Assembly: GCA_015999875.1 (NCBI GenBank)
Contig: JAECRG010000001.1
Coordinates: forward strand, 359,330-423,329
Source of the DNA: Candidatus Saccharimonadota bacterium
GTDB lineage: Bacteria; Patescibacteriota; Saccharimonadia; Saccharimonadales; Saccharimonadaceae
Reading direction: 5' to 3'
Length of the DNA: 64,000 bases
In this document: one piece after another, positions 9,100 through 52,365 of the stretch
Layout of the letters: every line of letters begins with the position of its first letter
Numbering within the stretch: the first letter of the stretch is position 1
Notes under the pieces: model-generated
Seen by the model: the letters and a program-made list of their open reading frames with translations, nothing else
Database searches by the model: none
Told to the model about the DNA's origin: nothing
Made by a program: the position numbers and the translations under genes

Positions 9100-9500
9100 A
9101 ATCTCATCTCCATATAATCTTGCAGGATAATTGCGGCCGCCTCTTTATCGATGTCGCCCTTTTCATAAGACTTACCTCGAGCTTTTAAACGATTCTCAGC
9201 CACGACACTCGTGAGCGACTCATCTTGAAACACGACCGGCGCGATATCAGCGAGCTGCGCAGCAAAAGCCTCTACGTACGCAGATTGAGCCGTAGACTCA
9301 CCTTGTTGATTGCGCGGATACCCTACGATTAGCTTGCTCGCGTTTTCTTGAATCACGAGCTCTGCAATCGTCTGCACTTCTTTGCCGTCAACTACGATAG
9401 TGTCGTATGGTACTGCGATGCGTACGGCTGTGTCTGCTACCGCTACGCCTATTCGTCGTTCGCCCACATCAAGACAAATCAGGTTTTGGCTCCGACCCAT
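9096..9500 (-). CDS. ruvX: Holliday junction resolvase-like YqgF/RuvX
   Basis: 134 residues, RNase H-fold protein also implicated in pre-16S rRNA 5' processing. Motifs: CLDVGERRIGVAVAD (residues 9-23), VGYPRNQQGES near 65-75, FQDESLTS near 91-98, and DKEAAAIILQDYM at the C-terminus with the last acidic residue. It starts 4 nt after the upstream gene stops and overlaps mltG by 4 nt. ruvX beside mltG is a common pairing in Gram-positive and related bacteria. Confidence 0.92.
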   Translation of the reverse strand: MGRSQNLICLDVGERRIGVAVADTAVRIAVPYDTIVVDGKEVQTIAELVIQENASKLIVGYPRNQQGESTAQSAYVEAFAAQLADIAPVVFQDESLTSVVAENRLKARGKSYEKGDIDKEAAAIILQDYMEMRL

Positions 9501-9504
9501 CGAA

Positions 9505-11136
9505 CTAGTTTTCGTCCAGATTAAACTTGATCGAAATCTTTTGTGTGTCGCCCGGTACGGTATTTACCCAGAAAGGCCAGAACTTCACTTCTACGTTATT
9601 TACACCGTCTATGGATTTGAGGTCGGACTGTATATCACCGAATCGTTTACCAGCTACACGCTTTTTCACGTCGCTGTCGTTTATCTGTGGCCCCACTTGC
9701 GCGGTAGCTGCGAGACTTGCCGTACCGCCCGTGTCGGTTGCCGCAAAATCAGTAAGTTTTGCCGCACCGGCCCCCGTCTCATAGACGCGCTGATCAGTCT
9801 CTTTAGAAAGCTTTGATTTGACTGCCGCCTCGATGAAATCGTCAAGATCGTTAGTAGCAACACCATTCATCGCATACGTAATAGATGAGGTGAGCTTAGC
9901 AGTACCGTTTGGCGCTTCCTGGCCGACCTGTGGCGCAGGCGCAGTGTCCGCTTTGAGTGTGCGGAAGCTGGAGTCGATCGCTTTTACGCCACTACCGAAC
10001 TTGGCTTCTAGCTTCGTCTTGATCTCGTTATTGTTTTGCTGAGCAAGTTGCTCGGATGCTTTTTGCACATCTTCTTGAGTTACGATCTTGAGAGTCTTCT
10101 TGCTACCGCCAGTCATATCGCCGCCTTTGGCGCTAATACCACTTTCTGTAGATTGGTAGCTTCGCGAAGAAAGATTACATTGTTCGCCAATAGCTGTTGC
10201 TTTCACTTGTACGTCGACAGTGCCAGGAGTTGTAGAGAACCCTGAACCATTCCAACCACCAGGTGTCGCGCCCGGCACCGTAACTTCGCTACGAGTTACA
10301 AATGTACAATCGCCGTTACTGAAGCCAGTGCCGAGTTCTATCTTCTTCGATCCTGGGCTTGATTTAGTCAAAGTCATCTTGCCGCTCGCAGCCTCGCCTT
10401 GCTCCTGCGTGCCGGTTGCCTGGAAATCTACAGCAGCCTCCTGAGATTCTTCAACCTGAACAGCCTTGAGAGTGCCTTTTGTTGCGTCTGTAGTAAGGGT
10501 TTGACCGAGAGTGACAGATGTTGATATATTTTCTTTACTTGTCTTCGCGGTAATTTCTACTGTTGCCCGCGGTGCAAAGAAGATTGCCCATACCAGAAAT
10601 CCTATCAAAAGAATCACACCAGCGATGATAAAGATTAATTTCTTACGGAATGAATTGAAATTTGGCACTTTGCCAGCTGCCTTCGACTTGCGTGGAGACT
10701 CACCGTTCTTTGGTGGGGCTGCATAGGATTTTTTGTCTGAGTCTGCCGACGAAGTAACAGGAATACTTTTCGAAGCGGCAGCCGTGGCAGCATGCTCACC
10801 TACGGGAAGTTGCGAACCGTCGATAATATCATCGTCATCGTCTACCTTGAGTGCTGCAATTTCTGGAATTTCTGGCTTACTTTGGAGATTCTTTGCCACT
10901 GGTATACTTGCGCCAGCAGCAAGCGGAATAAGTGACTGATCATTCGTGATAAGTACAATGTGCTTGCCAGCATTTTTGGCAGTGCGCTGCAAGATTCGTA
11001 AGTTGACCGCGCTTTGTAACACGCCAGTGCGCTTCGGCGGTACAAGTGCAACAACTTTTTCTTTGCTGTCTTTAACCTTACCGATTATCGCGGTTACATC
11101 ATCTTCGACATCGATATAGATTACGTCTTTGTTCAT
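9505..11136 (-). CDS. Single-pass membrane protein of the FtsA/PilM-like operon
   Basis: 543 residues, no family I can name. Seen: an alpha/beta N-terminal domain (about 1-100, starting MNKDVIYIDVEDDVTAIIG), a low-complexity acidic/Ser linker, one membrane span near residues 165-188 preceded by basic residues (FRKKLIFIIAGVILLIGFL), then a long Thr/Ser/Gly-rich extracytoplasmic part with repeated beta-type segments. Its start codon is 1 nt past the stop of the actin-like ATPase gene, so both proteins are probably made together. A role linking a cytoplasmic actin-like ATPase to the envelope (PilN-like or divisome-like) is inference from position and topology only. Confidence 0.75.
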   Translation of the reverse strand: MNKDVIYIDVEDDVTAIIGKVKDSKEKVVALVPPKRTGVLQSAVNLRILQRTAKNAGKHIVLITNDQSLIPLAAGASIPVAKNLQSKPEIPEIAALKVDDDDDIIDGSQLPVGEHAATAAASKSIPVTSSADSDKKSYAAPPKNGESPRKSKAAGKVPNFNSFRKKLIFIIAGVILLIGFLVWAIFFAPRATVEITAKTSKENISTSVTLGQTLTTDATKGTLKAVQVEESQEAAVDFQATGTQEQGEAASGKMTLTKSSPGSKKIELGTGFSNGDCTFVTRSEVTVPGATPGGWNGSGFSTTPGTVDVQVKATAIGEQCNLSSRSYQSTESGISAKGGDMTGGSKKTLKIVTQEDVQKASEQLAQQNNNEIKTKLEAKFGSGVKAIDSSFRTLKADTAPAPQVGQEAPNGTAKLTSSITYAMNGVATNDLDDFIEAAVKSKLSKETDQRVYETGAGAAKLTDFAATDTGGTASLAATAQVGPQINDSDVKKRVAGKRFGDIQSDLKSIDGVNNVEVKFWPFWVNTVPGDTQKISIKFNLDEN

Positions 11137-11137
11137 G

Positions 11138-12403
11138 TTATATTCTAAGGATTCTATTGAGTTTTTCTTTTATATTGTCGCTTTCGCTACTACCTAATAT
11201 TGTATCATATCCGACACGTAGCAGTCCCATGGCTGTGATATAGGTATGGTCTTTGATTGTACCCGTTTTATCCGTAATGCCGAGCACCTCAGATGGCTGA
11301 ATATGATGGACTGTAGGTTTGCGTGTAAACGGCAGCTCTTTATACCAGTCGCGTCCGTTGAGCGCATCGACTAGCTCTTCGAGGCTTGCACCACCGCCGC
11401 ACAGCAAGATGCGATTCGGTAAGTGGTCTACAGAATCAAATTCACTGAGTGCCAACTCTACACCCGAAAGCCACACGTCAAGTGTCTTGTCTATGGCCGT
11501 TTCAAGATGCTTCTTTACTGTCGGTTTGATGTTTTCATTGCGGATATTGACCTTGAGCTTCTCAGCCTGGTCATAAGTAAGGTCAAGCTCACTTGCAATA
11601 GTACGAGTGAAGCTACGCCCACCGATGCCAAACATCTTAGTACCTTCGACACCACCGTCGTTGACAACTGCGATGTCGGTAGTACCACCACCTACGTCAG
11701 CTAGAATAGCAGTGAAATTACTACTTGCGTCCGTGCCTAGTACACTCCGGCTGACCGCGAAAGGCTCTGCCGCGACCGCAACAAGCTCTAGTGCAAGCTC
11801 ATCGGCTACGCGCTCGAGCGCACCGATATGTACCATCGGAGCAAATGCCGTGTATATCTGCACCGCAACATCTTTACCTTGGAAACCAAGTGGATTTGAT
11901 ACCTTATACCCGTCGATATGGATACCCACAAGGGCGCTGTTAACAAGCTTAATCTCGACATCTTCGTTACCCGTCTCGAGCGCGATCTGGCGCTGCGCTT
12001 TTGTTTGTGCGCGCTCTTGTACCTTGTCGATAATAAATTCCATCTCAGCTTCGTCCAGCGGGCGATCGGGCTGAGGGCGGCGATAGCGAATCGTATTCGT
12101 CGTACCCTTTACAAGCTCACCGGCAATACCTATGACTGCGCGCTTTGCCTGAAGACCTGCTTGGTCTTCAGCTTCAGCAAGCGCCTCTTCGCAGTTTCGC
12201 ACCACACCTGATATGTCGGCGATTGCACCCGAGTGCATATCACTCACGTCTTGGCGTGCGCGCCCCACACCCACAACTTCTAATACCTCGCCGTCTACCT
12301 TGGCGATCATTGCTTTGACAAACTCTGTACCGATGTCTACTGCAACAATATAATTTCTGTCGATGGAGTCATTTGCTCGTTTGCGTATTTTATCAAAAAC
12401 CAT
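11138..12403 (-). CDS. FtsA/PilM family actin-like ATPase
   Basis: 421 residues of the ASKHA fold with an SHS2-type insertion. Visible phosphate-binding motifs: YIVAVDIGTEFVKAMI (residues 19-34), DVGGGTTDIAVV near 232-243, and ILLCGGGASLEEL near 333-345. Length and the short basic amphipathic tail (NIKEKLNRILRI) resemble FtsA, which tethers FtsZ to the membrane; PilM, of type IV pili, has the same fold. The window also has pilin genes, but 34 kb away, so I leave the name open. First gene of a four-gene operon; ATG is 10 nt from a TATAAT box. Confidence 0.88.
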   Translation of the reverse strand: MVFDKIRKRANDSIDRNYIVAVDIGTEFVKAMIAKVDGEVLEVVGVGRARQDVSDMHSGAIADISGVVRNCEEALAEAEDQAGLQAKRAVIGIAGELVKGTTNTIRYRRPQPDRPLDEAEMEFIIDKVQERAQTKAQRQIALETGNEDVEIKLVNSALVGIHIDGYKVSNPLGFQGKDVAVQIYTAFAPMVHIGALERVADELALELVAVAAEPFAVSRSVLGTDASSNFTAILADVGGGTTDIAVVNDGGVEGTKMFGIGGRSFTRTIASELDLTYDQAEKLKVNIRNENIKPTVKKHLETAIDKTLDVWLSGVELALSEFDSVDHLPNRILLCGGGASLEELVDALNGRDWYKELPFTRKPTVHHIQPSEVLGITDKTGTIKDHTYITAMGLLRVGYDTILGSSESDNIKEKLNRILRI

Positions 12404-38931: not shown

Positions 38932-40755
38932 ATGAGTAAACTACTCGATAAGTTGCGTAAAGGGAACACACGTATTGGTGCGCTCGTCGCTATCGTAGCG
39001 GCAGCTATCATCATACCTGCGACCCTCTATGCATGGGGTCCAGATCGCCCTACATACACAATAGAGCGACCTGCAGATCATGTTACATTTAACTCTATCA
39101 CCAACAACCCAAATATTGGTGACGAGCGTAATTTCGTGGGTATCCGCGAAGCTACCGCTCCTAACGTATGGCACGATGACATGCAAGTTGAACGTGGCAA
39201 AGAATACGTCGTACGCATGTATGTACATAACAATGCTGCGTCTAATCTCAACAAGGTTGCAGAGAACACAACTGCACGCATCACACTCCCGACAGCTACT
39301 GGTACATCTGTGCAAGTAGACGGCTCAGTGTCAGCAAACAACGCGTCACCCCAGATGGTCTATGACCACGCGACCTTTAAGAGCTCTGAGAACTTCAATA
39401 TTGCCTACATCCCTGGCACACTGAAGTATGAGAACAATGTATTTGGTGCGAACGGCACAGCCTTGCCAGAATCAATCTTCACAAGTGCTGGTGCACTACT
39501 CGGCTACGATAAGCTTGATGGTAAAATTCCTGGCTGTTTCGAATATGCCGGCTACGTATCGTTCAAAGTTAAACCACAATTTGCGCAAACACCACCTTCA
39601 GACTTTACGGTTCAGAAGCAAGTTCGCAAAGAAGGCGCAACTGACGGATTCAAAGAAACTACTGCTGTCAATCCTGGCGACACAGTTGATTACCGTATCG
39701 AAGTGAAGAACACTGGCGGTGCACCACTTAAAAACGTTGCACTCAAAGATCAGCTTCCAACAGGCATGAGCTTCGTACCTGGTACAGTAAAAATCTTGAA
39801 CGCCAACAACCCTAGCGGTGCCCTCGTACAAGACGGCGACAAGCTCGTTTCTAGCGGCATCAATATCGGAGAATACACTCCCGGCTCGAACGCATTCGTA
39901 GTGTTCAAAGCCAAGGTAGCGGCAAACGCTCAACTACCAGTATGTGGTCCAAATACACTCACAAACAAAGCATCTGCTCAGCCCGAAGGACAAAATCCTA
40001 AAGATGACACAGCAGATGTGACAGTACCAAAAGAATGTCAGCCAGAAGCTGCATACAAATGTACAGCACTTGCGGTAAACAAACTGAGCGATACAAAGTT
40101 CAAGTTTGAAGCAGGCTACACTGTGACCGGTGGCACATTCAAGAGTGTAAGCTACGTTGTTCGCAATGAAGCTGGCGCTACTGTTGCTACCGTAAACGGT
40201 GCACCAAACGCAGCTGAATACACACAGGCAACTCCTGGTAAGTACACAGTACAAGCTACGGTTACATTCACGGTCAACGGCCAAGATGTAACCGCAACAA
40301 GCGAAGCATGTAAAAAAGCTTTCGAAGTACCTGCTCCAGAAGACAAGAAAATCATCGTCTGTGAAATTGCTACTAAGAAGATCGTGACCATCAAGGAAAG
40401 CGAATTCGATGCAAGCAAGTACTCAAAAGACCTCAACGACTGTAAAGAAGTTCCTAGCGATATCATCGTATGTGACCTCACTACTAAAGAAGTAGTTACA
40501 ATCAAAGAGAGTGAATTTGATAGCAGCAAATACAGCAAGGATCTTAAAGATTGTGCAGAAGCTCCAAAAGAGAACTGCCCAATCCCTGGCAAGGAACACA
40601 TGCCAAAAGACAGCCCTGACTGTAAAGTAACTCCAGTAACTCCAACTGAGCTTCCACAAACTGGTAGCAACGATGGCGTACTGACAATCGCTGGTCTTGC
40701 GACCCTCGCACTCGTGCTTGGTTATGCAGTGACAGCTCGCCGTACAATCGGCTAA
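38932..40755 (+). CDS. LPXTG-anchored surface protein with DUF11-type domain
   Basis: 607 residues. N-terminal signal/anchor segment (about 16-36), an N-terminal domain of unknown type, a DUF11-like domain (about 225-365; NPGDTVDYRIEVKNTGG), an Ig/PKD-like domain (375-450), two tandem 37-residue repeats (VTIKESEFDASKYSKDLNDC and VTIKESEFDSSKYSKDLKDC, about 462-540), then the sorting signal LPQTG at 574-578, hydrophobic stretch and TARRTIG tail. A housekeeping sortase would attach it to peptidoglycan; none is in the window. Likely an abundant surface layer or adhesin protein, given the consensus promoter. Single gene. Confidence 0.92.
   Translation: MSKLLDKLRKGNTRIGALVAIVAAAIIIPATLYAWGPDRPTYTIERPADHVTFNSITNNPNIGDERNFVGIREATAPNVWHDDMQVERGKEYVVRMYVHNNAASNLNKVAENTTARITLPTATGTSVQVDGSVSANNASPQMVYDHATFKSSENFNIAYIPGTLKYENNVFGANGTALPESIFTSAGALLGYDKLDGKIPGCFEYAGYVSFKVKPQFAQTPPSDFTVQKQVRKEGATDGFKETTAVNPGDTVDYRIEVKNTGGAPLKNVALKDQLPTGMSFVPGTVKILNANNPSGALVQDGDKLVSSGINIGEYTPGSNAFVVFKAKVAANAQLPVCGPNTLTNKASAQPEGQNPKDDTADVTVPKECQPEAAYKCTALAVNKLSDTKFKFEAGYTVTGGTFKSVSYVVRNEAGATVATVNGAPNAAEYTQATPGKYTVQATVTFTVNGQDVTATSEACKKAFEVPAPEDKKIIVCEIATKKIVTIKESEFDASKYSKDLNDCKEVPSDIIVCDLTTKEVVTIKESEFDSSKYSKDLKDCAEAPKENCPIPGKEHMPKDSPDCKVTPVTPTELPQTGSNDGVLTIAGLATLALVLGYAVTARRTIG
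40651..40665 (+). other. LPQTG sorting signal codons
   Basis: Codons for LPQTG, followed by 22 mostly hydrophobic residues and ARRTIG, the standard sortase substrate tail. Confidence 0.85.
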
Positions 40756-40858: not shown

Positions 40859-41083
40859 ATGAGTAAACAAAAGAAGAAGCGCAACAAGCAATACACTGGA
40901 GCCGGCTCAAATGCCGTACGCCCTCAGACGATTCGTGTAGAAGCAGTGCAGCGCAACAAAGCACAGCTATGGTGGCACGAACGCAAGCGAGTACTCAAAC
41001 CTGCACTCATAGCTGCAGCCGTCATCACGATAGTCATATGGCTATTGTTTGAACTACTGAGCCTTGTCTTCGGCGGGCGTTAG
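40859..41083 (+). CDS. Small basic membrane protein
   Basis: 74 residues: very basic first half (MSKQKKKRNKQY...), then one membrane span (about 50-71, ALIAAAVITIVIWLLFELL). N-terminus probably inside. The 3' end overlaps the sensor kinase gene by 30 nt on the other strand. Supported by an 8-nt spaced -10 box. No family recognised. Confidence 0.65.
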   Translation: MSKQKKKRNKQYTGAGSNAVRPQTIRVEAVQRNKAQLWWHERKRVLKPALIAAAVITIVIWLLFELLSLVFGGR

Positions 41084-43258
41084 CGCAGCAATTGGCAGGC
41101 TAAATCCAAACGTACTGCCCTTACCCTCCACAGAAGAAAAGATAATGTCGCCGCCATGCTCGGTGACAACTTTTTTAGCCAGATAAAGACCTACACCAGT
41201 ACCGTCTGGTCGACGATTCCGCGCGTTGCTCGCGCGATAGAATTTTCCAAATAATTGCGACTTCGCTTCGGCGGGCACACCGATACCCGTATCTTTAACT
41301 TCAAATACCAACTTATCGTTTCGCCTACTCAATCCGATCTTTATGATTGAGTTTGCGTCGGAATAATACATCGCGTTGTCAATGAAATTCATCACAACCT
41401 GCCGCAGCTTGCCTTCATCTACCATAAGCTGCTGCGGCAATTCACCTGTCCTACTATATTCCAATGTGAGCTCGCGTGACACCGCCGTAGACTGCAATGA
41501 GTTTACCTCATCGGTAATCATCGCCGGAATATCGCTCGGATGCTTATCTATTACAAATCTACCTGTCTGTAATCTAGACATATTTAAGAAATCTTCAATG
41601 AGGCTCACCATGCGTTGGCTACTCTTAAATGCCTCGTCGAGTAACTGTCGTTGCTGAGCATTTACTGGGCCAGCATCGCCATCGAGCACCAAGCTGATAT
41701 AGCCCTTTACGCTCGTGAGTGGCGTACGCAATTGATGCGACGCGATGCTCAGGAATTCATCTTTTACTTCGTCTATCTTATGAAGCTGTGCGTTACTATG
41801 CCTCAATTCACGTGTCGCCGAGCTCACTTCTTTTCGCAGGCGCTTGTTAAACGATTTAATCTCATCAAAGCGCAGGCCGTTCTGAATTGCCAGTGCCAGT
41901 TCGTCCGCAGTAGTAGACAGCAGCTGCGTATCTTGCTCACTATACGGCAGGCCGTTTTGCCGTTCACCGAAGAAAAGTACACCCACATGCTCGCCTTTTA
42001 CCATCAACTGCACAATTACCTGTGCACCGGAATCTTCTGCTATTTGCCTAGTTTCAAACGCAGTAATATCGCTCACCCGTGTGGTACGTGGTAGCTCGGC
42101 TAAAATATCTTTGACTATGTCGAGCTGCTGCTTGTAATGCCTAGGTGTATGACGCCCCTTGAGGTTGCGAACATAATGATGCGTGCGACCGTGAGCCGAC
42201 ATAATATAGAGCGATACATATGACGGAGCCAATGCTTCCACCAGTACGGCAAGCGACTTATTAATAACTCGATTGAGCTCAATCTCATTTGCCGTAACAG
42301 TACTAAACTGCTGCAGTACTTCGTTGAAATTATAATCACGATGATAAAAGAAACGATACGTCAGCTTGTCGAGCAGCACGCGCAGTGGCCCGACGCCAAG
42401 TAGCAACGCAAGCGCCGAACCAAGATAGAACAATTGCTGCGTCACACTTGGCTGGAAATCGCCAAAGATCATACCGCCAAACCCAAAAATCACCGCCGCA
42501 TATACCACTAGCGCCACTACTACAACAGCCACATACCCTACAGAACGCGCCAATGCCGCACGGACATCGAATATACCTTGAGTTGCTAGCACATAGAGTA
42601 GATAGCCAGTGAACGCAAAGGTAAAGGGCGGACCCATCCATATGCTGCCATAATTACCAATCATCGGTAAAAAGATATCAAAATATGCACCAGCTACCAC
42701 TACGACACCAAGCGTGTAGGTCATCATAAGCACTTGGTGCGCAAACTTTTTATTGTGCGTGCGTCGTACTCCCCGATAGCTCAAAAACAAACGGAGAAAA
42801 GCAACGCACACGAGTACTGCAAATATCGCAGTATAGACAAGATACCAGACAGCATCAAGCTCAACAGCGTTTAGCATATGATCTACCATCGCGTGCACCA
42901 CGACGCCCTGAGGCATTAGGACGATGAATGCAGCGAGAGCGACTAGCGACCACGATACAACCCGCTCGACATCCGTAACCTTGTGTGGAATTGGGTAATG
43001 TGTCGAGAATTTATAGAGGCCAAACGCCATCACGATAGCCGTAAGATAATATGCCTTGGCATATATTGCAGCTAGCACCACATCTGTTTGCAATATAAAA
43101 AGCAGCATAAGCAAGCTCCATGCGCCAGCTCCAAAAAGCATCACACCAGCCCATATGTTGATGGCTGTACGTCGTTTTGCGGACATGAGCATCACACCTA
43201 CGGATAGTGCAATCACCGCACAACAGAGTAATACTATCACTACAAGATATACGCTCAC
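41054..43258 (-). CDS. Membrane sensor histidine kinase (7TM-GAF-HisKA-HATPase)
   Basis: 734 residues: seven or eight hydrophobic segments (1-245) of the 7TM sensor type, a GAF domain (about 310-445), HisKA with phosphoaccepting His in SIASHQLRTPLTSVKGY near 506, and an ATPase domain with NFIDNAMYY, DTGIGVPAEAK and GTGVGLYLAKKV. Its start overlaps the end of the methyltransferase gene by 4 nt. A single-domain response regulator is divergently transcribed from the other end of the pair and is the likely partner. Confidence 0.93.
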   Translation of the reverse strand: MSVYLVVIVLLCCAVIALSVGVMLMSAKRRTAINIWAGVMLFGAGAWSLLMLLFILQTDVVLAAIYAKAYYLTAIVMAFGLYKFSTHYPIPHKVTDVERVVSWSLVALAAFIVLMPQGVVVHAMVDHMLNAVELDAVWYLVYTAIFAVLVCVAFLRLFLSYRGVRRTHNKKFAHQVLMMTYTLGVVVVAGAYFDIFLPMIGNYGSIWMGPPFTFAFTGYLLYVLATQGIFDVRAALARSVGYVAVVVVALVVYAAVIFGFGGMIFGDFQPSVTQQLFYLGSALALLLGVGPLRVLLDKLTYRFFYHRDYNFNEVLQQFSTVTANEIELNRVINKSLAVLVEALAPSYVSLYIMSAHGRTHHYVRNLKGRHTPRHYKQQLDIVKDILAELPRTTRVSDITAFETRQIAEDSGAQVIVQLMVKGEHVGVLFFGERQNGLPYSEQDTQLLSTTADELALAIQNGLRFDEIKSFNKRLRKEVSSATRELRHSNAQLHKIDEVKDEFLSIASHQLRTPLTSVKGYISLVLDGDAGPVNAQQRQLLDEAFKSSQRMVSLIEDFLNMSRLQTGRFVIDKHPSDIPAMITDEVNSLQSTAVSRELTLEYSRTGELPQQLMVDEGKLRQVVMNFIDNAMYYSDANSIIKIGLSRRNDKLVFEVKDTGIGVPAEAKSQLFGKFYRASNARNRRPDGTGVGLYLAKKVVTEHGGDIIFSSVEGKGSTFGFSLPIAALTPAEDKAQ

Positions 43259-44282: not shown

Positions 44283-44654
44283 ATGACTAAAATTGCGATA
44301 ATCGAAGACGACTCAGCCATCCATCAAATGTACCGTATGAAATTCGAAAGCGAAGGCTTTGATGTGCAGCTTGCGGGCGATGGTCGCAGCGGTGTTGAGC
44401 TAGTTAAAAAATTTCGCCCAGACCTTATACTTCTCGATATGCAGATGCCCGAAGTAGACGGCCTCTCTGCGCTTCGTATTATCCGCAAAGAAGACTGGGG
44501 CAAGACAATTCCTGTCATTATTCTCACAAATCTCGGTGAAGAAGAATCTCCAAAGGAACTTCGCTCCCTCGGCATCAGTGGCTACATCGTGAAAGCCGAC
44601 CTGACACCTCGCCAAGTCGTAGCCAGAGTCAAAGAAACACTCGCTAAGAGCTAG
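44283..44654 (+). CDS. Single-domain response regulator
   Basis: 123 residues, only a receiver domain: acidic pair IIEDD (6-10), phosphoaccepting Asp in LILLDMQMP near 52, Thr in ILTNLG near 82 and Lys in YIVKAD near 101. No output domain, so it signals through protein contact or phosphorelay. Likely partner of the kinase at 41054-43258. Its last 11 nt overlap folD, which converges. Confidence 0.93.
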   Translation: MTKIAIIEDDSAIHQMYRMKFESEGFDVQLAGDGRSGVELVKKFRPDLILLDMQMPEVDGLSALRIIRKEDWGKTIPVIILTNLGEEESPKELRSLGISGYIVKADLTPRQVVARVKETLAKS

Positions 44655-46236: not shown

Positions 46237-46313
46237 GGGCCAGTAGCTCAGCTGGTTAGAGCACCTGCCTCTTAAGCAGGGTGTCCGGGGTTCAAGTCCC
46301 CGCTGGCCCTCCA
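46237..46313 (+). tRNA. tRNA-Lys (CTT)
   Basis: Acceptor GGGCCAG / CTGGCCC, anticodon stem CCTGC / GCAGG, loop CTCTTAA, anticodon CTT at 46271-46273, T loop TTCAAGT, CCA encoded at 46311-46313. Confidence 0.96.
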
Positions 46314-46425: not shown

Positions 46426-46926
46426 ATGGGGACGGGTGCAAGAGACGACAGGGATGATTCTGGATTTACAATTGTTGAGATGATTGTAACTCTTGTCCTT
46501 GCGAGCTTATTTGTCATTTTTCTCGTCCAGTTTTTCCTCGCTGCGGGTGGTCAGCAAATCTCCGTCGAACGCCAGGCGGCGGCCAATAATCTAGCCCGCA
46601 CCAATCTCAGTAAATTTCCTCGTGCTTCGAGCTTGACTGGCTACACTTGCGACCCCAACACAACGCCCGCCGCCAACACAAACAACCTCACTATCAACCC
46701 ATCAGCCAGCGGCACCCTAATACTCAGCAATACCGTCAACAATGGTAGTACAACCCGTGAGCCAGCGCCACCAATACTGCCAAACGTCACACAGGAGGTG
46801 CGAGCCTACTCGCCCATGGGCTGTATGCCTTCGGGTAGTGGTATCGTCAAGATTGTCTCACGCGTTACGTATGGCTACATAGGGCAGACAGGAGAGGTAG
46901 TCTATGCAACATATGTCCAAGAATAA
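46426..46926 (+). CDS. Type IV pseudopilin-like protein
   Basis: 166 residues from ATG 46426 (chosen for the -10 box 10 nt upstream; the longer frame overlaps the promoter). Prepilin peptidase site DSG|FTIVEMIV with Glu at +5, then the hydrophobic N-terminal helix. Short leader MGTGARDDRDDSG. The globular part has Cys in GYTCDP and PMGCMP. First of three overlapping prepilin genes; likely a minor pilin. Confidence 0.85.
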   Translation: MGTGARDDRDDSGFTIVEMIVTLVLASLFVIFLVQFFLAAGGQQISVERQAAANNLARTNLSKFPRASSLTGYTCDPNTTPAANTNNLTINPSASGTLILSNTVNNGSTTREPAPPILPNVTQEVRAYSPMGCMPSGSGIVKIVSRVTYGYIGQTGEVVYATYVQE

Positions 46927-47668
46927 CAATCGCGGTTTTACCATCCCCGAGCTCCTCGTAACTATCACTGTCGCTACGATTATACTTGCTGGTGTCTTCG
47001 CACTGCTCGTCAATCTAATTCGTATAGGCAACTCAATTATCGAAACAACCAGACAAGTCCAGAACAACCAGCTTGCTATTCAGTCAATCGAAGATGACCT
47101 ACAGCTTACTCGTGGGTTTCTCAAACTACCCGACATCGTAGACACGCCGATCTCCGGCTCTGGCACATGGAGCCATGTCGGGTCAGGAGTCAATAATCGC
47201 GTACTAATCCTACAGACCGGCGCTACCACTGCACACAAAAGCAATGCCACACGCGAGCTCGTCCATAAACTAGCCGGTGGCTGTCCTGTCGGCACTCAGC
47301 CCGCCACAAACAACATCATTTACTATGTAACCAATCGCACACTCTATCGCCGGATAGTAGTAGAGAATCTTCCAGCCAGCACCTACTGCCCTGGCCAGTC
47401 TATCAGCCAAGTGCGCACCTGTGTCGCGCCCGCTACCCCTGCCAACTGCAGAGAGAAAGACGTTATCGTAGCCACAGATATCACTGGCTTCAGCATCGAC
47501 TACTTCACAAATCCCGGCGACACCACCCCCGTCGCAGATGCCTACACATCAGGCAGCCTTCAATCCCGCTTAGCAGTACAAATAACCATAACATCGACAA
47601 AAAACATAGATGGAGAGCAGCATGCACAAACTACCGCGATTCGACTTTCACGCGTTTCAACCAACTAG
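46904..47668 (+). CDS. Type IV pseudopilin-like protein (PilW/PilJ type)
   Basis: 254 residues. Leader MQHMSKNNNRG|FTIPELLVTITVAT with Glu at +5, typical prepilin N-terminus. SD AGGAGAGG 6 nt ahead of the ATG at 46904. Cys-containing C-terminal half (GGCPVG, YCPGQ, RTCVAP, NCREKD) suggests disulfides. Overlaps both neighbours, so it is co-translated with them. Confidence 0.85.
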   Translation: MQHMSKNNNRGFTIPELLVTITVATIILAGVFALLVNLIRIGNSIIETTRQVQNNQLAIQSIEDDLQLTRGFLKLPDIVDTPISGSGTWSHVGSGVNNRVLILQTGATTAHKSNATRELVHKLAGGCPVGTQPATNNIIYYVTNRTLYRRIVVENLPASTYCPGQSISQVRTCVAPATPANCREKDVIVATDITGFSIDYFTNPGDTTPVADAYTSGSLQSRLAVQITITSTKNIDGEQHAQTTAIRLSRVSTN

Positions 47669-50591
47669 TACACAATCAAAAGGCTTTATATTACCTTCTT
47701 TAATTGTCATTTCACTCGTACTCCTCTCAATCGGCATGATTGCAATGCAATATATATCCTCCTCGACTGCCACCATCCAAGAGTCACACTACACGGCAGT
47801 CGCCAAAAGCGCAGCTGATGCCGGCATCAGTCAAGCGCTGAGCTGTATTAAGTCTGGTGCGATGGACTGGACAAATGCCACTAAACTTGCACCAAACACC
47901 AACTGCACCGGATCTCTTACGCCAGCCACCGGACGCAACGAATTTCTCTCGGAAGGTGCAAACGGCATCTGGAAATCAACCTTCAGAGTAGATCAGCTGG
48001 TTCAAAACGAGACAGGTACCGTCGTCACCTCCACAGGTTACGTAAACTTCTACTATGCAGGCAGCGCTACACCCTCGAAAACCTACACGCAGTCACGCAA
48101 AGCTACCATCCCCACCACTAATATAAATGACACTCGCCCGATCGCCAGCGGCACTGCCGTCACAAAAGTTACCGCAGGCAGCGGCTTTACCTGTGCTATC
48201 GCCAATCAGCTCCTATATTGCTCCGGCTCGCGTAATCAGAACCAGCTCAACACAGGCGTAAGTGCGAGTAACGTCCTGACGCCAACCCTCATAAGCACCG
48301 GCGGTTTGTCGGGTAAACGTATCACAGATGTACGAGCTGGCTACTTCAACAGCTGCGCCGTCACCGAAGGCAAGCAGTACTGCTGGGGGCGAGGAGACAT
48401 GGGACAGCTTGGCAACAACAACACCACTACTTACCAAAACTCAATCGAGCCCGTCTTCGTACCGGGCATGTCAGGCTATATTCAGAAAGCATCACCAGGC
48501 ACCTCCGGCACGTTCGCCACGCAGTTTGGCTGCACGCTGAATCAAATCAAAATCTTCTGCACAGGTGGCAACGACTATGGACAACTTGGCCGCCCAGTCG
48601 TTGTGTGTAACTTATGGATTTTTGGCAACTGCGTCGGAGGCTGGAGAATTGAAGACAAGGCATTCTTTACAACTGGCTGGCCAGCCAATGTCAATGCTGG
48701 CTCCACTGAGAACCGACGCGTCTTCGGCTATGACACCAGCAACGAAAGTAGCGAGGTGCAAATGTTTGTCAATCAAAGCCAGCTCTTCAATACCCGCCCA
48801 ACAGATGTCGATAACGGTGCATATTATGCCTGTACTCTCGTCAATGCACGCGTCTTCTGCTGGGGTGATAGGTATATTATCGCTACTATTCTTGGCAACG
48901 AGCAAAATGGCAACACCACTTCGACACGTGGGTGGCGCAACGATGGCTCGAGCATCAAAGCCACCAACTTCAGCGCTGGCGAATCCACCTCCTGTTTCGT
49001 AGCCAACGGCGAGCTCTACTGCTGGGGTGCGCGTCCTGGCAACGGTGGGGACTACGGGGTTGCAAGCACCATGAACGTTTACAAGACATCAAACGGCCCC
49101 GGCTCCGCGCTATACGGGGTCAATGTAGAAGGCACCGACACTATTGCAGACCACATTTACTGCGCCTATGGAGATGGTGACGCCTACTGCTGGGGTGATG
49201 GCACGTACAACACCGTATCCCCTATCCAGCTCACCTTCGGCACCGCTAGCACCGACGCCATTACAGACGTCGCAGCCGGCTTCTTCCACGGCTGCGTGGT
49301 TGCCAATGGCTCACAATTCTGCGAGGGCACGAACACGTCTGGTGCACTGGGCAATGGCACTACTACCTCAAGCCCTACAAAATCCTCAAATATTGGCCTC
49401 AGCTCCGGCGAAGCTGCCACTAGCATCGCAAGTGGTAAGTCACACTCCTGCGCTATCGCCAACGGCTACATCTACTGCTGGGGACTCAATGACCGAGGCC
49501 AGCTCGGCGTGGGCGACATCGTACGTCGTCCGCAGCCTTACGGCATTGTTAATGTCACAAAACCGAAGGCAGCTAGCCAGGTAGCCACTGGCGATCAGCA
49601 CTCCTGTGGTGTTATTGGTGGTGCTGCCTACTGCTGGGGTGATAACTACTATGGTCAGCTAGGTAATGGCCAGCAAGGAAACTACTCCAACACTCCCGTT
49701 GCCGTTCAAGGCCTGGGAAATCGCAAAGTCACCTCGATCGATGCCGGTGCATACCATACCTGCGCCATCGCTGATGCTCAAGCATTCTGTTGGGGACGCA
49801 ACAACGTCGGGCAACTTGGCACCGGCGCATCAACCGCCAACCAAGTCACTGCCCAAGCCGTCAGCGGCCTTGGAGGAGACATACCCACTAAGATCACTAC
49901 CGGCGACCAATTCACCTGCGCCATTGCCAATGCCTACGCCTACTGCTGGGGTGCGAACGACCGCGGACAACTTGGAGCAGGCAATGTAACATCGCGAACC
50001 ACTGCCCAGCGAATACCATTTGAACTCCAAAACGGCTGGACAGACATCGACGCGGGTGGAGAGTTTGCCTGTGGCGCAGTCAACAACGTCACTAAATGCT
50101 GGGGACGCAATGACGTCGGGCAATTAGGCCGTAACTATACAACCCCAATTGCAACGCCGAATACGGCCAACTACACACCCGCCAATGTCATCAGCACGCT
50201 CAGTGGTCAGACCGTCAGCTGGAAAGCCACGACCACGATCACTGCCGGTACAAACCACGCTTGCGCCATCGCAAACGGAGATACTCACTGCTGGGGTGCG
50301 AATGCGTCAGGGCAGCTTGGCATTGGTACCACTTCAGCATCAGTTGCCGACTCTCGTTTAATTACCAAGGTTGCAGGCTACCTCGACACCAACCACGCCT
50401 ATAAGATTTCTGCCGGCGATGCCAGCACCTGCGCCATCGCCAATGGTAAAATCGCATGCTGGGGCAAGGGTGACCAGGGGCAATTCGGCGATACCACTAT
50501 ATCCGCCAGCAGAAACACGGCGAACGCCTGGGCACGCGAGTACATTCGCCAACAACGCACCCTCGACCTCACAAACATCACAGTACTGTAG
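47622..50591 (+). CDS. Giant prepilin-like protein with RCC1 beta-propeller repeats
   Basis: About 989 residues from ATG 47622 (SD GGAGAG 4 nt ahead). The N-terminus has a PilX-like prepilin region, KG|FILPSLIVISLVLLS, but with Ser where the conserved Glu at +5 is expected. The rest, from about residue 165, is a run of ten or more RCC1/ALC-type repeats with the pattern CAIANG..YCWG.N..GQLG.G, enough for one or two seven-bladed propellers; Cys pairs (TCAI...YCWG) recur in each blade and may form disulfides. Inferred role: a large tip or adhesive component carried on a pilus made with the two upstream pseudopilins. Overlaps the previous gene by 47 nt. Confidence 0.86.
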   Translation: MHKLPRFDFHAFQPTSTQSKGFILPSLIVISLVLLSIGMIAMQYISSSTATIQESHYTAVAKSAADAGISQALSCIKSGAMDWTNATKLAPNTNCTGSLTPATGRNEFLSEGANGIWKSTFRVDQLVQNETGTVVTSTGYVNFYYAGSATPSKTYTQSRKATIPTTNINDTRPIASGTAVTKVTAGSGFTCAIANQLLYCSGSRNQNQLNTGVSASNVLTPTLISTGGLSGKRITDVRAGYFNSCAVTEGKQYCWGRGDMGQLGNNNTTTYQNSIEPVFVPGMSGYIQKASPGTSGTFATQFGCTLNQIKIFCTGGNDYGQLGRPVVVCNLWIFGNCVGGWRIEDKAFFTTGWPANVNAGSTENRRVFGYDTSNESSEVQMFVNQSQLFNTRPTDVDNGAYYACTLVNARVFCWGDRYIIATILGNEQNGNTTSTRGWRNDGSSIKATNFSAGESTSCFVANGELYCWGARPGNGGDYGVASTMNVYKTSNGPGSALYGVNVEGTDTIADHIYCAYGDGDAYCWGDGTYNTVSPIQLTFGTASTDAITDVAAGFFHGCVVANGSQFCEGTNTSGALGNGTTTSSPTKSSNIGLSSGEAATSIASGKSHSCAIANGYIYCWGLNDRGQLGVGDIVRRPQPYGIVNVTKPKAASQVATGDQHSCGVIGGAAYCWGDNYYGQLGNGQQGNYSNTPVAVQGLGNRKVTSIDAGAYHTCAIADAQAFCWGRNNVGQLGTGASTANQVTAQAVSGLGGDIPTKITTGDQFTCAIANAYAYCWGANDRGQLGAGNVTSRTTAQRIPFELQNGWTDIDAGGEFACGAVNNVTKCWGRNDVGQLGRNYTTPIATPNTANYTPANVISTLSGQTVSWKATTTITAGTNHACAIANGDTHCWGANASGQLGIGTTSASVADSRLITKVAGYLDTNHAYKISAGDASTCAIANGKIACWGKGDQGQFGDTTISASRNTANAWAREYIRQQRTLDLTNITVL

Positions 50592-50649: not shown

Positions 50650-50726
50650 TGGTACACCCGGTACGATTCGAACGTACGACACCTGGTTCCGAAGACCAGT
50701 GCTCTAATCCACTGAGCTACGGGTGC
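50650..50726 (-). tRNA. tRNA-Arg (TCG)
   Basis: Minus strand. Acceptor GCACCCG / CGGGTGT (G1-U72 wobble), anticodon stem CTGGT / ACCAG, loop CTTCGGA, anticodon TCG at 50692-50690, T loop TTCGAAT, CCA at 50652-50650. Promoter TGGTACAAT on the minus strand at 50760-50752. Confidence 0.95.
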
Positions 50727-50760: not shown

Positions 50761-50777
50761 CATCCTAGCATGTGCGC

Positions 50778-50783
50778 TATAAT
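50778..50783 (+). promoter_or_regulatory. murB -10 box, leaderless
   Basis: TATAAT, 9 nt before the ATG at 50793. Confidence 0.55.
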
Positions 50784-50792
50784 AGTCTGCAT

Positions 50793-51815
50793 ATGAACGT
50801 GCACACAAACATTCCCCTCAAAAACTATCTATCTATGAAAATGGGCGGTACTACTCGCTTCATGGCAGACGTCACTACTGTCGATGAACTTTCTCAGGTC
50901 ATCACAAACGCTAAGACGAAAGGTATACCATTCTTCATCTTAGGTAGCGGAAGTAACGTCATCGCCCGCGACGACGAGTACACCGGACTTATCATCCGTG
51001 TTCGCATACCAGGGTTCGAGATCATCTCAGAAGATTACACTACTGTGACTATCAAGCTGGGAGCCGGCGAAATCTGGGACGAAGTAGTAGCTCAGACCGT
51101 AGACAAAGGGCTCATCGGCATCGAAGCCATGTCCGACATACCAAGTTACTGTGGTGCCGCACCCGTACAAAACATCGGCGCCTATGGCCAAGAGATAGCC
51201 GACACTCTGGTATCCCTTGAGGCATACGACACTACGGCAAACCAAGTAGTAACCCTCACAAACGAAGAATGTAAGTTCACTTACCGCGACAGCATCTTCC
51301 GCACAGAAGCACAGGGTCGCTACATCATCACTTCTATCACCCTGCAGCTCTACAAAGCAGCACCCGAGCCGCCATTCTACAAAGGTGTCCAAGATTATTT
51401 CGACGAGCACAACATCACCATCTACACCGCAAAAGCCATTCGCGAAGCAGTCATAGCGATACGTCACGAGAAGCTGCCAAATCCAGTCGAGAAGCCAAAC
51501 TCTGGATCATTTTTCAAAAACGCCATCATAGAGCAGTGGCAGCTCGATGAACTACTACAGGACTATCCAGATGCTCCCCACTATGAGATGGGCGACGGCC
51601 GCCACAAAGTCCCCTCTGGCTGGCTTATTGAACAATGCGGCTTCAAGGGCCAGCTACTTCATGGCATGCGTGTCAATCCTGCAAATGCGCTCGTTCTCAT
51701 CAACGAATCAGCCACAGGCTACCTCGATCTATCCCTTGCGCGTACAGAGATAACTCAAGCCGTGCAAGATCGTTTTCGTATCAATATAGAGCAAGAACCA
51801 CTAGAGATAGCATAG
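50793..51815 (+). CDS. murB: UDP-N-acetylenolpyruvoylglucosamine reductase
   Basis: 340 residues from ATG 50793 (a GTG at 50772 is upstream of the -10 box). FAD-binding part with FILGSGSNVIARD near 48-60 and GIEAMSDIPSYCGAAPVQNIGAYGQEI (in pieces) near 111-137; TYRDSIF near 170 fits the Tyr loop of type I (E. coli-like) MurB; catalytic Ser in NSGSFFKN near 241. Second step of UDP-MurNAc synthesis; the HTH-MurA fusion and mraY are 4-5 kb away. Confidence 0.95.
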   Translation: MNVHTNIPLKNYLSMKMGGTTRFMADVTTVDELSQVITNAKTKGIPFFILGSGSNVIARDDEYTGLIIRVRIPGFEIISEDYTTVTIKLGAGEIWDEVVAQTVDKGLIGIEAMSDIPSYCGAAPVQNIGAYGQEIADTLVSLEAYDTTANQVVTLTNEECKFTYRDSIFRTEAQGRYIITSITLQLYKAAPEPPFYKGVQDYFDEHNITIYTAKAIREAVIAIRHEKLPNPVEKPNSGSFFKNAIIEQWQLDELLQDYPDAPHYEMGDGRHKVPSGWLIEQCGFKGQLLHGMRVNPANALVLINESATGYLDLSLARTEITQAVQDRFRINIEQEPLEIA

Positions 51816-51897: not shown

Positions 51898-52365
51898 ATG
51901 AGTCTTCAAACATTAAAAGATCAAAAGGGTTTCACTATCGTTGAGCTCTTGATCGTAATCGTAGTCATCGGTATCCTAGCCGCTATCACAATAGTAGCGT
52001 TCAACGGTGTACAAAATCGCGGCAAGACTTCCTCTTCCGAGTCTGCTGCAAATACAATTGTCAAAAAAGCTGAAGCAGCCAATTCCCTAGCATCAAGCTA
52101 CCCGCAGGATGCATCTGGCTTTTCGGCGAACAAAGAGTCGAGCCTCACAGGTTCAGGTATTACGATCGTAGCAACTGCGATTACAGCAGCACCTCCCGCG
52201 CCTGGAACTGTCTATATCATGCCTTGTAGTGGAACCGCTGGAACAGGTGGCCGCGTAACATACTGGAACTTCAGTACTAATGCAGCCGTCACAAAGTCCT
52301 ATGGTGAGCCAACTGCAGCAGGCACATGCGCAGCAGGCACAGCCATTGCGGCAGGGACGTTCTAG
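51898..52365 (+). CDS. Type IV major pilin
   Basis: 155 residues. Leader MSLQTLKDQKG|FTIVELLIVIVVIGILAAI with Glu at +5, the classical type IVa N-terminus. Two Cys (MPCSG and GTCAAG) bracket the C-terminal part in the place of the pilin D-loop. Alone with its own promoter and a strong terminator, as expected for an abundant subunit. Assembly genes (pilB, pilC, pilD) are outside the window. Confidence 0.93.
   Translation: MSLQTLKDQKGFTIVELLIVIVVIGILAAITIVAFNGVQNRGKTSSSESAANTIVKKAEAANSLASSYPQDASGFSANKESSLTGSGITIVATAITAAPPAPGTVYIMPCSGTAGTGGRVTYWNFSTNAAVTKSYGEPTAAGTCAAGTAIAAGTF

Follow-up and report, generated by a model that had tools for sequence, protein, structure and literature searches.

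An operon of three overlapping genes in the DNA of a Candidatus Saccharimonadota bacterium, a small episymbiont (positions 46426-50591 of a 64,000-nucleotide stretch of GenBank contig JAECRG010000001.1, hereafter the window) probably encodes the minor pilins V, W and X of a thin type IV pilus, T4P-2, with the large third protein acting as the tip adhesin for contact with the host. The closest described protein is PilX2 of Nanosynbacter lyticus TM7x. This minor pilin bears a single hepta-bladed RCC1 propeller, and no PilD signal is predicted for it (PMC12206443, ISME J 2025). TM7x has two type IV pili, both imaged as surface filaments by cryo-electron tomography, and their genes lie in three places: locus one encodes T4P-1, locus two encodes the T4P-2 machinery, recAX and a single pilin, and locus three is a pilin cluster of its own, with pilA2, X2, W2, V2 and Z2 (PMC12206443). 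Deletion of pilX2 reduced the host cells bound from 10.6% to 4.6%, similar to the 4.8% of a major-pilin mutant and the 3.9% of an ATPase mutant; thin pili were still present, and the authors proposed PilX2 as the T4P-2 adhesin (PMC12206443).

Several other tip proteins bear comparison with the large protein of the window. In the available passages of a survey of modular pilins (PMC8179133), Streptococcus sanguinis PilB (vWA) and PilC (lectin) carry an adhesive module on a small pilin module and are expected at the pilus tip. Unlike the window protein, PilB has a glutamate at position +5 of the mature pilin (Glu+5) and a different module, and RCC1 is not named among the head functions in these passages. 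PilY1/PilC of Pseudomonas, Myxococcus and Neisseria also place a beta-propeller at the type IV pilus tip. However, PilY1 is not a pilin and its propeller is of another family (IPR008707); the large protein had no match to the PilC/PilY1 domain in a Pfam scan. The KilLMN tips of the Myxococcus Tad pilus are paralogous minor-pilin tip complexes with varied C-terminal heads and many predicted disulfides, and they make contact with other bacteria; they differ from the window protein in belonging to a Tad pilus and in their head folds (PMC12075869).

The operon and its propeller-headed prepilin

The window protein resembles TM7x PilX2 in being a Saccharibacterial minor pilin with a non-canonical signal and a C-terminal RCC1 head, encoded in a cluster apart from the T4P-2 machinery. 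Its operon consists of three overlapping open reading frames on the forward strand, encoding two small prepilins and one large prepilin-like protein, much as a preliminary description had proposed (two pseudopilins overlapping a giant prepilin-like protein). The likelier start of the large protein is ATG 47622, which has GGAG 6 bases upstream and gives the 989 residues estimated earlier, rather than ATG 47610; residue numbers here follow the 993-residue form that begins at ATG 47610. The operon and the parts of the large protein are as follows.

46426-46926, + strand: small minor prepilin, PilV2-like by position; 166 aa; GFTIVEM, Glu at +5; N_methyl PF07963, E 7.8e-5
46904-47668, + strand: minor prepilin, PilW2-like by position; 254 aa; GFTIPEL, Glu at +5; N_methyl PF07963, E 6.1e-6; overlaps both neighbours
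47622-50591 (989 aa) or 47610-50591 (993 aa), + strand: PilX2-type modular minor pilin with a double RCC1 propeller (by blade count)
47622-47684, + strand: leader peptide, ending STQSKG; cut expected before Phe26
47685-47855, + strand: N-terminal pilin helix, residues 26-82; AlphaFold helix 27-81 / 28-82
47856-48158, + strand: pilin globular domain; four strands, 112-115, 119-133, 136-149 and 155-168; C79, C99
48159-49388, + strand: RCC1 propeller 1, blades 1-7, residues ~184-593; blades 3 and 4 separated by a long insert; greater variability in the genus
49389-50513, + strand: RCC1 propeller 2, blades 8-14, residues ~594-968; regular 52-residue repeats; high model confidence

The N-terminus of the large protein reads TQSKG/FILPSLIVISLVLLSIGMIAMQY, the slash marking the expected cut. 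As in type IV pilins, a hydrophilic leader ends in Gly at -1 and is followed by Phe (where Phe or Met is expected) at +1 and by a hydrophobic helix, which opens FILPSLIV; the Glu expected at +5 is Ser. A type IV pilin N-terminus that lacks this Glu had been noted before, and SKG/FILPS together with the modelled fold agrees with it. The AlphaFold model of residues 1-183 has a 55-residue helix and a four-stranded sheet (mean predicted local distance difference test, pLDDT, 67), with the long N-terminal helix packed on the antiparallel sheet in the manner of pilins, as structural alignment also indicates. The best eight VIA-align matches of this model are all pilins or pseudopilins (Z 7.3-5.5, root-mean-square deviation (rmsd) 2.5-4.0, 76-112 residues). 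A Z below 8 is weak taken singly, and the weight comes from eight pilins in series. The top match is the XcpGHIJK filament (Z 7.3, rmsd 3.0 over 112 residues), in which chain residue 1 pairs with model residue 26, the expected first residue of the mature protein. These models support a prepilin-type N-terminus with a genuine pilin fold.

The protein might instead sit outside any pilus, as a surface protein held by its N-terminal helix, the prepilin-like start being a membrane anchor and nothing else. Neither the Pfam nor the NCBIfam prepilin models match the N-terminus, which, like the missing Glu+5, would suit such an anchor. However, modelling gives the N-terminal domain a pilin fold that puts mature residue 1 where it is expected, the Gly at -1, Phe at +1 and Pro at +4 are kept in most of the 91 relatives described below, and the gene lies in a T4P-2 setting and overlaps a pair of canonical prepilin genes. 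Moreover, the second RCC1 protein of the same genome takes a different route. We regard a plain anchor as very improbable. That second protein (842 aa; locus L009, positions 9130-11658; G000:C1:45129-47657) is encoded next to parA/parB and is not a pilin; it has an apparent N-terminal Sec-type signal and a C-terminal PNTG-membrane-anchor end.

The rest of the large protein matches RCC1 (PF00415, E 9e-67, 9 scored repeats) and WD40_RLD (E 5e-87) in Pfam, at values that chance cannot account for. The total is 14 blades, each with a Cys-x8-Cys pair (C195/204 to C941/950) followed by a W/T/S/E-G step, which sharpens an earlier count of more than ten blades with repeated Cys pairs; a short tail follows blade 14. 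Fourteen is twice seven, in keeping with the tandem repeats in sevens of the RCC1 superfamily, and the protein would by this count carry two seven-bladed propellers. Structure prediction, which had been proposed as a check, gave a pilin lollipop plus RCC1 propeller blades: the blades of the full-length AlphaFold model match UVR8, RCC1 and HERC2 (best, UVR8, E 1e-31), proteins that share the repeat and the propeller fold with this head. The case for two closed propellers comes from the number of blades and from relatives, because propeller 1 is poorly modelled. Each blade may hold a disulfide, for about 15 in the whole protein; the genome encodes VKOR, a disulfide-formation enzyme, and a disulfide-forming pathway is therefore likely.

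Bacterial extracellular RCC1 proteins of many phyla likewise have C-x8-C pairs and 7, 14 or 21 blades. We had considered the pairs and the 14 blades as pilin-specific, an idea rejected since both are frequent in secreted RCC1 proteins of many phyla. Among 80 RCC1 loci, most proteins have Sec-type or lipoprotein-like starts, and a pilin start is found only at the Saccharibacterial/Patescibacterial loci L095, L096, L099 and L112.

In this genome of 1.04 Mb (three contigs), genes for two type IV pilus machineries are present, named here from sequence and gene order; a further pilin gene lies downstream of the operon.

C2:34-50k: T4P-1, locus one (L094); pilM-N-O-B-T-C, pilA, pilD, three or four minor pilins
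C3:466-484k: T4P-2 machinery, locus two (L093); pilB-C-M-N-O, recX-recA, one lone pilin
51898-52365, + strand: PilA2-like pilin; GFTIVELL; N_methyl E 3.2e-8; closest to major (pseudo)pilin models; same place across the genus

This is the TM7x layout of T4P-1, T4P-2 machinery locus and separate pilin cluster. Judged from sequence and gene order, the window operon together with the PilA-like gene at 51898 is the predicted counterpart of TM7x locus three, and the PilA2-like protein is probably the major pilin of the filament to which the minor pilins of the operon belong.

Proposed position and role of the large protein

Glu+5 normally pairs with the N-terminus of the neighbouring pilin subunit, and the exceptions are tip subunits such as GspK of type II secretion. 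Loss of Glu+5 is therefore expected only at the tip. In the mechanism we propose, PilD, which is encoded in the T4P-1 locus of the same genome, would cut the leader before Phe26, and the Glu+5-less X subunit would start or cap the thin T4P-2 filament together with V and W. Its pilin domain would dock at the tip of the filament and probably lie above V and W, as GspK rests on GspI/J. The double RCC1 propeller would then be displayed at the far end of the pilus, stiffened by its disulfides, where it may first touch and tether the host cell through a component of the host surface. We infer the tip position, the cleavage, the disulfides and such a ligand, and propose the host-binding role by analogy with TM7x. 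Glycans are suggested as ligands because lectin modules (ricin-B, LamG) occur in sister proteins. RCC1 heads are also present in the tail-fibre proteins of two Pseudomonas phages, likewise structures by which bacterial surfaces are recognised.

The loss of Glu+5 and the minor pilin order, which resembles I-J-K, also recall GspI/J/K, and no structural match scores higher than the XcpGHIJK pseudopilus model. The large protein could thus be the tip subunit of a protein-exporting type II secretion pseudopilus rather than of a surface pilus. However, Pfam gives no T2SSK match at E up to 1, as would mark a GspK, and the machinery is arranged like that of the two type IV pili of TM7x, filaments that cryo-electron tomography shows on the cell surface (PMC12206443). 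We consider a secretion pseudopilus highly implausible.

A modular pilin might also lie in the shaft or base, or prime assembly, with the propellers serving initiation, capping or internal contacts and not host adhesion. In the available passages of PMC7541494, the minor pilins and PilY1 of Myxococcus prime assembly besides being located at the tip. However, TM7x deprived of pilX2 continues to form thin pili, and it binds hosts as poorly as the major-pilin mutant does. In addition, a head of about 800 residues would hardly pack inside a filament 1.8 nm wide, and the heads of related proteins range over lectins, propellers and glycine-rich domains, which is a better fit to ligand binding than to a conserved assembly contact. 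An internal or priming role is thus unlikely, although it deserves more weight than the other two alternatives.

Several observations weigh against a PilX2-like tip adhesin. Foldseek found no significant match of the pilin domain in the PDB, the VIA-align result above coming from the same candidates, and the AlphaFold models are of middling confidence (mean pLDDT 65-67), with a poor model of propeller 1. TM7x PilX2 has a single propeller, whereas the window protein has 14 blades (two propellers by count), and TM7x PilX2 lacks a predicted PilD signal. The proposed orthology of the two proteins rests on locus arrangement, type of N-terminus and type of head; searches of the surveyed genomes by head and by pilin domain did not recover the TM7x PilX2 gene. 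Finally, TM7x without pilX2 retains thin pili and has altered thick pili, so that a role other than tip adhesin is possible there (PMC12206443). Two RCC1 proteins of genus g2 have Sec-type signals and were discarded as non-pilins.

The preliminary description had suggested an adhesin of a new type for contact with host cells. A likely tip adhesin survives from this suggestion. However, the type is not new: a propeller pilin as such is already known from TM7x PilX2, published in 2025. What goes beyond that work (PMC12206443) is the pairing of propellers in one protein and, across the family, the range of heads that one mount carries. The propeller pilin bears on the open question of how obligate bacterial episymbionts locate and attach to their hosts.

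PilX2-type proteins and their heads in the family

RCC1 proteins are nearly confined to the GTDB family of the window within its order, with 4 of 85 matching genomes outside. A survey of Patescibacteria for pilin-RCC1 fusions, suggested at the outset, was run in this one Saccharibacterial family on genomes of 90% completeness or more. Of these 249 genomes, 95 encode the PilX2-type pilin domain (alignment A3), which occurs in 29 of 42 genera. In the 91 PilX2-type relatives, Gly at -1 is found in 83, Phe at +1 in 84, Leu at +3 in 86, Pro at +4 in 79 and Glu at +5 in none, which supports loss of Glu+5 as a strict feature of the subfamily. The missing Glu had been called typical of GspK/PilX-like tip subunits; its absence holds across all 91 proteins, and the tip location is our reading of it. 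A GFxLP start without Glu+5, with AAxAG in the helix, offers a signature for tip subunits that the Pfam and NCBIfam prepilin models miss.

PilX2-type proteins are present in TM7i (G311) and oral taxon 348 (L112), and the V-W-X order is the same in this TM7 HOT-348 genome. By a simple motif search, two canonical prepilin genes lie directly upstream in 12 of the 84 relatives that have enough upstream sequence. The remaining relatives mostly stand apart, so PilX2-type proteins as defined here are encoded either within an operon or on their own. Upstream of the RCC1 pilin of HGW-Saccharibacteria-1 (L096, 2847-5269) are two consecutive canonical prepilins of 396-399 aa, far above normal pilin size.

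RCC1 blades make up the head in 61 of the 91 proteins. Blade counts cluster at 7, 14 and 21, with 21 in TM7i and L095; nine proteins scored 8 blades, most of them with one false first match about 110 residues early, inside the pilin domain. A ricin-B lectin domain lies between blades, at residues ~430-590, in 17 of the 61 RCC1-headed proteins (16 by Pfam, 1 by similarity). Sixteen of the 91 have Gly_rich_2 heads (one by similarity), two of these with LamG and two with fibrinogen-C; four have Kelch-type heads (three by match), and ten have another or no recognised head. The very C-terminus is aromatic (..FY, ..IY, ..YF) in most RCC1-headed PilX proteins, irrespective of blade number.

On a tree of the pilin domain, a short, divergent domain for which the bootstrap had not settled, 26 changes are required to explain the head labels, compared with 59 when labels are shuffled. 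One well-supported clade (98/82) mixes glycine-rich, triple-RCC1, double-RCC1 and DUF6273 heads, and double heads involve at least five changes on well-supported branches. On this tree the heads track descent, yet appear to have switched several times. Elsewhere in the family, three PilX2-type genes are clustered at L283 3014-10857 (G077), at least one with Kelch repeats in place of RCC1.

We tentatively suggest, at somewhat less than even confidence, that the PilX2-type mount serves as a cassette on which heads for host recognition can be exchanged, shaped by duplications and independent head changes, and that it covers one to three RCC1 propellers, the ricin-B insert and Kelch-like, LamG, fibrinogen-like and glycine-rich heads. 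Were this so, the kind of head would contribute to determining the hosts to which an episymbiont can attach. With the mount conserved and the head changing, host-specific attachment would become open to tests that compare purified heads.

A second type of pilin-RCC1 fusion, of about 505-545 aa, occurs at L053, L059, L074, L081, L085 and L089 (TM7i). These proteins begin as canonical prepilins (GFTxVEL, with Glu+5) and continue into seven C-x8-C blades, or six by count in L085. The fusion of RCC1 heads to pilins appears to have happened on at least two occasions in the family.

Divergence within the genus and flanking genes

All four genomes of the genus have the pilin operon in one conserved position, with murB and the PilA-like gene after it. 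In the best protein alignments with the window, MurB is 81-87% identical, V and W 43-56% and X 34-47%. Pairs with the window have 28-101 gap columns in propeller 1 and 18-22 in propeller 2, so that indels are more numerous in propeller 1. Faster evolution of the propeller than of the pilin domain was considered and rejected, since identities of the two are similar within the genus and propeller 1 stands out by its indels alone. Fast divergence would suit a surface-exposed, host-facing part, and is no proof of selection. One genome of the genus (G001; L298, 7129-15630) has the V-W-X operon twice in tandem, with strongly different propeller pilins of 1071 and 968 aa.

The operon is flanked by the following genes. 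Scans for promoters and terminators gave no signal above shuffles.

46237-46313: tRNA-Lys, 5' flank of the operon
50650-50726, opposite strand: tRNA-Arg, 3' flank of the operon
50772-51815: murB, between the pilin operon and the PilA2-like gene

Just upstream of the operon are genes for a GAF-histidine kinase (41054-43258, - strand) and a response regulator (44283-44654, + strand). The position of the latter is kept in two other genomes of the genus, at 80-87% identity. Farther upstream, at 38932-40755 of the window, a 607-aa protein has a DUF11 domain and a weak LPXTG-like anchor (Gram_pos_anchor, E 0.0017).

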